In this document: one piece after another, positions 9,288-10,753 of the stretch
How the letters are laid out: each line of letters opens with the position of its first letter
How positions within the stretch are numbered: the first letter of the stretch is position 1
Notes under the pieces: model-generated
What the model was told of the DNA's origin: nothing
Seen by the model: only the letters and a program-made list of their open reading frames with translations
The model's database searches: none
Assembly (NCBI GenBank): GCA_903828455.1
Contig: CAIKMJ010000045.1
Location: 1 to 64,000, forward strand
Length of the DNA stretch: 64,000 bases
Source: an uncultured Acidobacteriia bacterium
GTDB lineage: Bacteria > Acidobacteriota > Terriglobia > Bryobacterales > Bryobacteraceae
Reading direction: 5' to 3'
Position numbers and translations under genes: made by a program

Positions 9288-9316
9288 TTGACTCCGCCGC
9301 GTTTCAGGCGCATGAT
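9288..9316 (+). promoter_or_regulatory. Sigma-70 type promoter of the large structured RNA
   Basis: TTGACT (9288-9293) and CATGAT (9311-9316) are separated by exactly 17 bp, matching consensus at 5 of 6 and 4 of 6 positions. A T-rich patch precedes the -35. The predicted start, about 9323-9325, falls 2-4 nt before the closing helix of the RNA. Confidence 0.7.
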
Positions 9317-9322
9317 CGACTC

Positions 9323-9863
9323 AGTTCCAGGGTTCACGGAACGATAGCCGAGCGGGACGAAGCGAGTCTGTAGCGTCGATCCGGAGCGCGGGCCGAAAGG
9401 CCTCTATCGCAAGATAAACGCGCCGGGGAGTGAGGGACGATCGGTTGAATCGTAAGGCGGGCTTTCGGTGAGGACGCTGGCTGAACGCTTTGATCCGGAA
9501 GGTTGTGTCGCCGTAAGGCCGGCACGGACCTGAAGGGGAGTGGAGGCCAGGGAGAATCGCCGGAGTGCCGAAGGACGGAGCAGGAAACAGGTTCTGAGCA
9601 AAGATCTCGCCCCGGTCGCGGCCTCGAAACCGGACGGAGCGGAGGAGTTCAGGATCCGAGCGCCTGAAACGGAATTCGGTGTGAAGACGAAGGCGCAGGT
9701 CAGGAACTGTGACCTCGTAATGGTGGCGAAAGCGTCGTTACGGGCGAGCGAAAGACCGCTCCGAGTTTTCGGCTCCAGGCCGGCGTGAAAACGCTGGTTT
9801 GCGGATCGGGCGCCGGCATGCAGGCGGATCGATCAATCGTGCCGTGAACCCTGGACGTTTTTT
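9323..9863 (+). ncRNA. Candidate large structured non-coding RNA (about 540 nt), class unknown
   Basis: The two ends pair over 19 nt with one mismatch (9327-9345 with 9836-9854), and TTTTTT follows at 9858-9863. The interior holds many local helices. A three-way junction has an outer stem 9381-9390 with 9419-9426 and hairpins capped GAAA (9395) and GCAA (9409). Further hairpins are GTGTCG/CGGCAC at 9505-9525 with a GTAA cap, TTCAGG/CCTGAA at 9648-9668, AGGTCA/TGACCT at 9697-9715, an 11-pair hairpin at 9716-9742 capped GAAA, and CCGGCGT/ACGCTGG at 9780-9797 capped GAAA. Five GNRA caps occur on the plus strand only. There is no convincing protein in any frame. I see none of the conserved sequence of RNase P, tmRNA, 6S or SRP RNA. 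Confidence 0.75.
9836..9863 (+). terminator. 3' closing strand plus U-run ending the structured RNA
   Basis: The 3' strand of the end-to-end helix (ending CCCTGG at 9854) is followed by ACG and then TTTTTT. The helix that closes the RNA thus sits directly before the U-run, as in an intrinsic terminator, but its 5' strand lies about 490 nt upstream. Confidence 0.65.
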
Positions 9864-9873
9864 GTTCGCGCTT

Positions 9874-9921
9874 GCTTTGAGCTGAAGCTGCTTTGAGCTG
9901 AAGCGGCTCTGAGCTGAATCT
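9874..9921. repeat. 16-bp tandem array between the structured RNA and the zinc-ribbon gene
   Basis: Three copies of gctttgagctgaagct at 9874-9889, 9890-9905 and 9906-9921, the last with several changes. It lies downstream of the stop of the gene ending at 9947. Confidence 0.9.
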
Positions 9922-9946
9922 GTGTTGCGCGTAAGCTGCTTTGCGT

Positions 9947-10753
9947 TTACGCTTGCGGCTCGACCGGTTTTTCCGCGCCAGCCTGACTGCCGACGGCTTC
10001 CATCTGGCGAGACGCCGTCTCCCCATGAGCTGCTCCGGCTCTGGCCGCCTCTGCCCGGACCGGCTCGGTCAGAACAGAATCACCCTCGTTCCGCTCATCG
10101 GTCTGCTGCTCCCTCGATTTCTGCGCCGTCGATTTCTGCGCCGTCGGTTTCTGCTCCGCCGGTTTCTGCTCCGCCGCTGCCTTTCCGCGATTCAGATCGG
10201 CTTTGAGCGACTGCGCCAGTTCTCTCAACCGGGCGTAGTCCATATCCGTATCTTCGTCCTGCTCGTCGCGGGGTGCGCCGCGGCGCTCACTCCCGTCCCA
10301 GCGTTGTCCCGACTTCGAACCCGGGCGCGCCTTCACGTAAGCAGCTTCCTGCCTGCGGAGATCGGCCGGCGTTTCGGCCGGCTCCGGCAGACCCGGCAGC
10401 GACATTTTCTTCCAGCGGCTGAAGCTGAAAATCTCCCGGCGTTTGCGGAAACTGGCGAAGTTGATCCGGCAGTATTCACAGCGCCAGCGCTTGGCGCCGA
10501 ACGCAAGCTTCACGGCTGTCCAGAATGGCGGCTCATACGTCTTGCCGCTCCAGGCATTTAAATCCTGCCGCAGACAGATCGGGCAGCGTGAATAAACCAG
10601 ATCGGACCACTCCAGCGTTCGGGCAATAAACCGATGCTTGCAATCGAGGCAGCGCAGCGGCGACATGAACCGCATCGCGCCCAGCTTCTCCGACAGGTCG
10701 CGCGGACGCGCCGGACGCAGATAGCGGCTCCCGCAATTCGGACAAGCGGTCAT
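9947..10753 (-). CDS. Zinc-ribbon protein of unknown function with pentapeptide-repeat tail
   Basis: A 268-residue protein. The first half has four CxxC knuckles (CPNC, CLDC, CPIC, CEYC, between about residues 4 and 95), which suggests two zinc ribbons. It has no membrane segment or signal peptide. The second half is charged and low in complexity, with EQKPA/TAQKS pentapeptides encoded by the 15-bp array at 10116-10175. The ATG overlaps the stop of the aminotransferase gene by 4 bp (10750-10753), so the two are translationally coupled. I cannot assign a function; a nucleic-acid or protein-binding role is only suggested by the ribbons. Confidence 0.75.
   Translation of the reverse strand: MTACPNCGSRYLRPARPRDLSEKLGAMRFMSPLRCLDCKHRFIARTLEWSDLVYSRCPICLRQDLNAWSGKTYEPPFWTAVKLAFGAKRWRCEYCRINFASFRKRREIFSFSRWKKMSLPGLPEPAETPADLRRQEAAYVKARPGSKSGQRWDGSERRGAPRDEQDEDTDMDYARLRELAQSLKADLNRGKAAAEQKPAEQKPTAQKSTAQKSREQQTDERNEGDSVLTEPVRAEAARAGAAHGETASRQMEAVGSQAGAEKPVEPQA
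10116..10175. repeat. 15-bp tandem array in the zinc-ribbon gene
   Basis: Two perfect copies of gatttctgcgccgtc (10116-10145) are followed by two perfect copies of ggtttctgctccgcc (10146-10175). They are in frame and encode TAQKS and AEQKP. The two sub-types suggest successive rounds of duplication. Confidence 0.97.

Follow-up and report, generated by a model that had tools for sequence, protein, structure and literature searches.

The plus strand of the window (the whole stretch of 64,000 nucleotides that was analysed) carries the gene for a large structured RNA, which is best read, with a probability of about 0.7, as a free-standing, trans-acting RNA of a new class in the Bryobacteraceae that would work as a kissing-loop homodimer. 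The gene and its ends, the fold, the repeated modules and the self-covariation of one loop all emerge from the comparison of homologous sequences, and by comparative standards the existence of the RNA is certain. An earlier note on this DNA had recognised a free-standing structured RNA, which stands, and had overlooked the kink-turn-like modules, the dimerisation loop and the conservation of the promoter across the family. Under the preferred reading, a sigma-70-type promoter of its own drives the RNA, a long helix joins both of its ends, and the molecule folds into a maximum of five arms, in each of which a kink-turn-like module would introduce a bend, together with a separate 3′ hairpin. The six-letter palindrome in the loop of that hairpin would dock two RNAs symmetrically to give the homodimer; alternatively, the symmetric loop contact may be the starting contact of a larger assembly. 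By analogy with OLE RNA, we infer that the dimer may serve as a structural scaffold, made of RNA only or joined by some protein that is not related to L7Ae.

The transcription unit comprises the following features:

9288-9316, plus strand: promoter, with the -35 element TTGACT (9288-9293), a spacer of 17 bp and the -10 element CATGAT (9311-9316), by direct reading
9322-9863, plus strand: RNA gene, with a predicted start at about 9322-9324 and a predicted end within the U-run (108 aligned homologues)
9327-9345 and 9836-9854, plus strand: 5′ and 3′ strands of the closing helix P1, paired at 18 of 19 positions, with a single A.G mismatch
9858-9863, plus strand: T6 run, three nucleotides past the helix, predicted to form the terminator jointly with the closing helix (direct reading)

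Direct reading confirms the complete transcription unit with a TTGACT-17-CATGAT promoter that the earlier note had described. Its 19-nt end-joining helix was correctly placed, apart from the one mismatch, and its U6 run is present, albeit not directly after the closing strand. The RNA is about 535 nt long in the window and about 530-700 nt long across the Bryobacteraceae. Nearly every complete homologous locus carries TTGAC-17/18-[CT]ATNNT at an equal distance upstream of the RNA; in nearly all complete loci the RNA starts with GGTTCCAAGAGG or AGTTCCAGGGTT, with the complementary strand 500-700 nt later, and nearly all homologues have a T-rich tail 3′ of the P1 3′ strand. Most of the promoter surveys used the -35 element (TTGAC/TTGA) or the start motif as a search condition, and one set was read without a promoter condition; only a few loci failed the -35/start-motif condition, most of them truncated where a contig stops. 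The note had proposed a covariation check on the closing helix, and the helix passes it: P1 differs in sequence among relatives yet stays paired (GGTTCCAAG/CTTGGAACC, GGTTCCGAG/CTCGGAACC, GGCTCCAAG/CTTGGAGCC). The plus strand has a folding energy of -249.8 kcal/mol versus -220 +/- 6.3 for dinucleotide shuffles (z = -4.7, with 0 of 100 shuffles as good), and the minus strand gives a weaker z of -2.5. Protein coding, which had been judged implausible from the start, is ruled out: most indels between homologues (1566 of 1739) are not multiples of 3, all plus-strand frames contain stops, and the longest plus-strand ORF shifts its position between homologues. The source genome has one copy of the RNA. 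Shortly 3′ of the terminator, at 9875-9925, the window also contains direct repeats that are imperfect and about 18 nt long (GCTTTGAGCTGAAGC...).

Since the genes on both sides of the RNA in the window lie on the minus strand, the RNA is neither a leader nor a trailer but a free-standing unit. At many loci a convergent, unannotated gene for a zinc-ribbon protein and a gene for a class IV aminotransferase are found 3′ of the RNA, while at others the 5′ side is occupied by genes for what we take, from their sequences, to be a GAF protein and a Ycf48-like protein. Conserved neighbours of this kind could suggest a cis-regulatory element or a processed part of an mRNA, but the zinc-ribbon and aminotransferase genes are encoded on the other strand and point toward the RNA, and the RNA keeps its own promoter and terminator where the neighbours differ, which leaves such an origin hardly credible. 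In the window, the minus strand encodes a cysteine-rich multi-zinc-ribbon protein at 9947-10753, with homologues in 180 of 237 family genomes. In about 50 genomes (counted by eye) the zinc-ribbon gene and the RNA are convergent, and searches for relatives of the protein in Pfam, NCBIfam and PDB found none. It is also common in genomes with no match to the RNA, so that the association looks like shared ancestry of the locus; the gene keeps synteny with the RNA and is no more than a weak candidate for a partner.

A MAFFT alignment of 108 homologues, folded with RNAalifold, gave a consensus structure of 186 pairs, laid out as P1, arm A, a central stem bearing B1, B2 and B3, arm C and the 3′ hairpin:

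9347-9458, plus strand: arm A with module M1 (bulge GTC 9375-9377, GA 9378-9379, GA 9428-9429)
9459-9775, plus strand: central stem (9459-9463/9771-9775) bearing arms B1, B2 and B3, from the consensus structure
9464-9564, plus strand: arm B1 with module M2 (CGC 9486-9488, bulge TTT 9489-9491, GA 9492-9493, GA 9538-9539)
9566-9681, plus strand: arm B2 with module M5 (CTGAGC 9594-9599, bulge AAA 9600-9602, GA 9603-9604, GA 9645-9646, GTTCAG 9647-9652)
9683-9770, plus strand: arm B3 with module M3 (bulge TGT 9708-9710, GA 9711-9712, GA 9746-9747), the conserved core underlying covariance models R1 and R2
9776-9801, plus strand: arm C, a short hairpin here and about 100 nt with module M4 in most relatives
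9804-9834, plus strand: 3′ hairpin, with outer stem 9804-9808/9830-9834, inner stem 9811-9814/9823-9826 and loop GGCATGCA at 9815-9822
9816-9821, plus strand: palindromic loop hexamer GCATGC, the proposed kissing loop of the homodimer, perfectly palindromic in 95 of the 108 rows of the alignment

Covariation was assessed by a G-test with average-product correction against 20 tree-simulated alignments with the observed substitutions, at E<0.05 over about 187,000 pairs. Twenty-three column pairs were significant, all 23 of them inside the consensus structure and canonical in more than 80% of sequences, in support of the proposed large structured RNA that has a promoter and a terminator of its own. 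An earlier run on 54 sequences had given 12 significant pairs, all canonical in most sequences, and in the first set of 20 homologues both sides had changed in 80 of 111 pairs. Most helices show compensatory changes at most of their pairs; in the central stem, for instance, 99% of cells are paired, all five pairs have compensatory changes and the pair 9459-9775 is significant. The GNRA-capped hairpins that had been read from the window are present as described; several of the caps, namely those of two small hairpins near 9391-9416 and that of the GTAA hairpin near 9510, belong to particular lineages and are missing in most relatives. That some of the caps are special to this genome had also escaped the earlier note.

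The most repetitive aspect of the fold is a module that occurs once in each of arms A, B1, B2, B3 and C, of which the window copy keeps four (M4 is missing). Its pattern is a C-G pair followed by three bulged nucleotides, of which the last is mostly U, then a GA opposite a GA, and a paired stem. The consensus of the kink turn is itself established knowledge of that motif, and the modules carry its two-dimensional signature (three-nt bulge, GA/GA and C-G pair). More specifically, GA/GA is kept in 89-97% of homologues for M1 (100/105), M2 (105/108), M3 (96/108) and M5 (96/105) and in 86% for M4 (91/106), and the C-G pair that ends the C-stem is found in 79-103 of 105-108 homologues across the five modules. 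The stems flanking M5 and M4 covary strongly; in M1 and M3 the C-stem is short, and its neighbours are purine-rich and non-Watson-Crick. In several genomes the covariance model of M3 also matches M1 within the same RNA, which fits an internal duplication. From this pattern, the modules are probably true kink turns in three dimensions. The usual kink-turn proteins are those of the L7Ae family, to which OapC belongs, and no L7Ae relative (PF01248) was found in the source genome or in 60 relatives by a search that does find them in control genomes; an L7Ae-type partner is ruled out by this absence from 61 family genomes.

The purine-rich composition of the RNA, with its many GGA triplets, would also suit a protein sponge or regulatory RNA, for example one that binds CsrA in the manner of CsrB, the more so as the source genome encodes a CsrA relative and the RNA is free-standing, with a promoter that is strong by its sequence. 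However, it is the paired strands of the modules, and not hairpin loops, that contain the conserved GGA triplets, and the long-range closing helix, the covarying multi-arm fold and the palindromic loop would all be superfluous in a simple sponge. Such a role is very unlikely.

The case for a homodimer comes from the loop of the 3′ hairpin, which is 7-9 nt long among homologues. Seven forms of its hexamer occur in relatives (GCATGC, GCTAGC, GCGCGC, GTATAC, TCATGA, TCTAGA and GTTAAC); all are palindromes, and a single substitution never converts one of them into another. Counting G.U pairs, the palindromes in the alignment rise to 98 of 108. When the loop was read blind to the palindrome, demanding Watson-Crick closing pairs, 85 of 107 sequences had a perfect palindrome, compared with a mean of 39.8 and a maximum of 54 when the 3′ halves were permuted among sequences in 20,000 trials that ignore relatedness. 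By parsimony, GCTAGC was gained independently about four times and GCGCGC and TCATGA twice each, with G.U wobble intermediates such as GCATGT ahead of GTATAC. Two homologues (L024 and L177) have no palindrome, and about seven retain just the four central pairs. An intramolecular partner for the loop was considered and is ruled out: in 14 of 16 variant RNAs the hexamer is present once only, and it therefore cannot pair within one molecule.

It is this switching between palindromes, a self-covariation, from which two RNA copies are taken to form a kissing-loop homodimer in cells. Another possibility is that the palindrome is not for dimerisation, being instead a DNA-level site or the target of a symmetric protein, and that the RNA acts as a monomer. 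The dominance of GCATGC (82 of 108 aligned rows) would be equally expected of a sequence-specific site, but such a site would not drift among seven palindromes with G.U intermediates. Furthermore, the position of the palindrome coincides exactly with a hairpin loop closed by one of the significantly covarying pairs, whereas the other apical loops have a palindromic hexamer in 0-21% of sequences. A monomer with a palindromic site is thus unlikely, and the kissing-loop homodimer is the preferred explanation of the loop. Comparable arguments have been used elsewhere: in the cryo-EM study of OLE, ROOL and GOLLD, palindrome switches were among the evidence for the OLE L9.3 and GOLLD L21a bridges (PMC12286853), and for the OLE B3 and GOLLD B8 bridges the supporting switches were GGCC to GAUC or AGCU, and GC to CG (PMC12286853).

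One contig in the IMG/VR collection carries the RNA (L187:1-4514, IMGVR_UViG_3300021853_000534). Among its genes are those for a phage maturation protein and an RNA replicase, so it belongs to a single-stranded RNA phage; such phages have no DNA stage, and the contig is necessarily RNA-derived. Its first 579 positions align with the RNA, beginning at about nt 6 and stopping about 9 nt short of the end of the closing helix, where phage sequence takes over. Most likely the contig is a chimera that took in an abundant transcript during assembly or in the library, and possibly it is a phage that has captured a host RNA. Since the contig is RNA-derived under either reading, the RNA existed as RNA, with nearly the predicted ends; judging from this one contig, probably a chimera, it is transcribed in nature. 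A search for carriage by phages or plasmids was negative: blastn found no match to the RNA in a phage collection (50,697 phage records) or in a plasmid collection, and the sole match on a viral contig is this fusion with an ssRNA phage.

The homologue search that had been suggested as a check was run and yielded relatives throughout the family. Blastn over 200 genomes of the family found relatives in 24. A first covariance model, made from the 95 most conserved positions of 20 aligned full-length copies (window 9689-9776), matches 144 of 237 family genomes, and among 396 genomes sampled across the phylum its matches are confined to family members. A second covariance model, built from 45 diverse copies, finds the RNA in 145 of the 237 genomes, which represent 58 of 76 genera and mostly have 1-2 copies; in a class-wide sample of 299 genomes, all among the matches listed are family members. 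With these core models, no match was found outside the Bryobacteraceae in the sampled genomes (396 phylum-wide, 299 class-wide). Carriers include Bryobacterales, Solibacteraceae, Ca. Solibacter and Ca. Sulfopaludibacter, several of them from soil or peat. About 40% of family genomes have no core-model match, and in at least one of these the RNA is diverged rather than lost. Specifically, a genome of the window's own genus (G041) has a shorter, strongly diverged relative (L108:1145-1600) that keeps the promoter, an M2-like module and the closing helix, re-paired as CCAAGGGTCACGG/CCGTGACCCTTGG, and in which the core is missing. The RNA family is therefore bigger than the covariance models show, and absence is partly divergence. 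At least two copies at separate sites were seen in G036, G001, G094, G028, G053, G073 and others, those of G053 being only about 1.3 kb apart.

The covariance scan against Rfam, likewise suggested at the outset, was also run. It gave no match in the window, in agreement with the earlier impression that no known class could be recognised, and a search below threshold of the RNA and of 16 homologous loci, the latter at E up to 3, gave nothing meaningful. Chance-level matches to an HCV stem-loop (E 0.4), an S10 leader (E 3.1) and mascRNA (E 0.11) are not common to the homologues and were set aside. The size, conservation and complexity of the RNA, with many nucleotides invariant or nearly so, fall within the range of catalytic RNAs, and a ribozyme or the replacement of a housekeeping RNA might be envisaged. 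Yet the scans of these 17 family members returned no catalytic family, and the source genome has its own RNase P RNA elsewhere (RF00010, 274 bits; the present RNA has no RF00010 match) together with a weak 6S-like candidate, so this role appears quite improbable. The possible 6S RNA (G000:C73:18653-18846, L190) scores 36.9 bits, below the Rfam cut-off of 46.4.

No description of the RNA was found in the literature searched. An entry to be compared is Solibacter-1, which is not in Rfam: Weinberg et al. (2010) give it as a candidate motif for Solibacter usitatus, of the same bacterial group, and list it as a doubtful RNA, for that species alone (PMC2864571). Compared by its description only, Solibacter-1 may equal part of the present RNA. 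The RNA class is new to Rfam and to the literature searched, with Solibacter-1 as a possible exception.

The hairpin loop of the HIV-1 dimerisation initiation site (DIS) has seven to nine nucleotides. At its centre is a six-letter palindrome, in many cases next to purines, and this palindrome is GCGCGC in some HIV-1 strains. The resemblance to it is one of mechanism only: loop size and a six-letter palindrome are alike, and two relatives (L128 and L185) carry GCGCGC, but there is no homology, and the DIS belongs to the leader of a viral genome whereas the present molecule is a bacterial structured RNA.

Three natural RNA classes were found to form large homo-oligomers in a 2025 cryo-EM study (PMC12286853), and the likeness to OLE, GOLLD and ROOL that had been suspected earlier holds in kind and not by homology. 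OLE has about 600 nt, is free-standing and many-armed with at least one kink turn, and forms a homodimer through a symmetric kissing loop, the palindrome of which differs from relative to relative by switching (PMC12286853); the comparative signature of such a loop is found here. However, neither the window nor the 16 homologous loci match the OLE covariance model; OLE occurs in Bacillota and the present RNA in Acidobacteriota; the 61 Bryobacteraceae genomes have no L7Ae-family protein although kink-turn-like modules are present; and the palindrome is a hexamer here and a tetramer in OLE, with one module per arm here. GOLLD is likewise large and ornate, and homo-oligomeric with symmetric kissing loops that covary in their palindrome (PMC12286853), but there is no covariance match, and GOLLD lies on phages or prophages near tRNAs, whereas the present RNA is chromosomal and the window has no tRNA genes. 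ROOL is also large and a kissing-loop based homo-oligomer (PMC12286853); again there is no covariance match, and ROOL is encoded by phages and prophages, in contrast to the RNA described here with its lack of blastn matches in the phage and plasmid collections.

Most likely, judging from these comparisons, the RNA works like OLE, as a homodimeric structural RNA, without being a member of OLE, ROOL or GOLLD. There is about an even chance that it represents a fourth natural homo-oligomeric ‘ornate’ RNA class, unrelated in sequence to those three and distinguished by a repeated kink-turn module (up to five, one per arm) and a six-pair palindromic kissing loop, that is, a chromosomal RNA machine that may need no dedicated protein. 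If so, (i) soil bacteria would add another homo-oligomeric RNA class, (ii) the commonness of RNA quaternary structure would gain a directly testable case, (iii) a modular kink-turn-like architecture would be open to structural tests with one transcript and (iv) the comparative evidence for the dimer contact, with its seven six-letter palindromes, would be richer than the switches reported for OLE or GOLLD.
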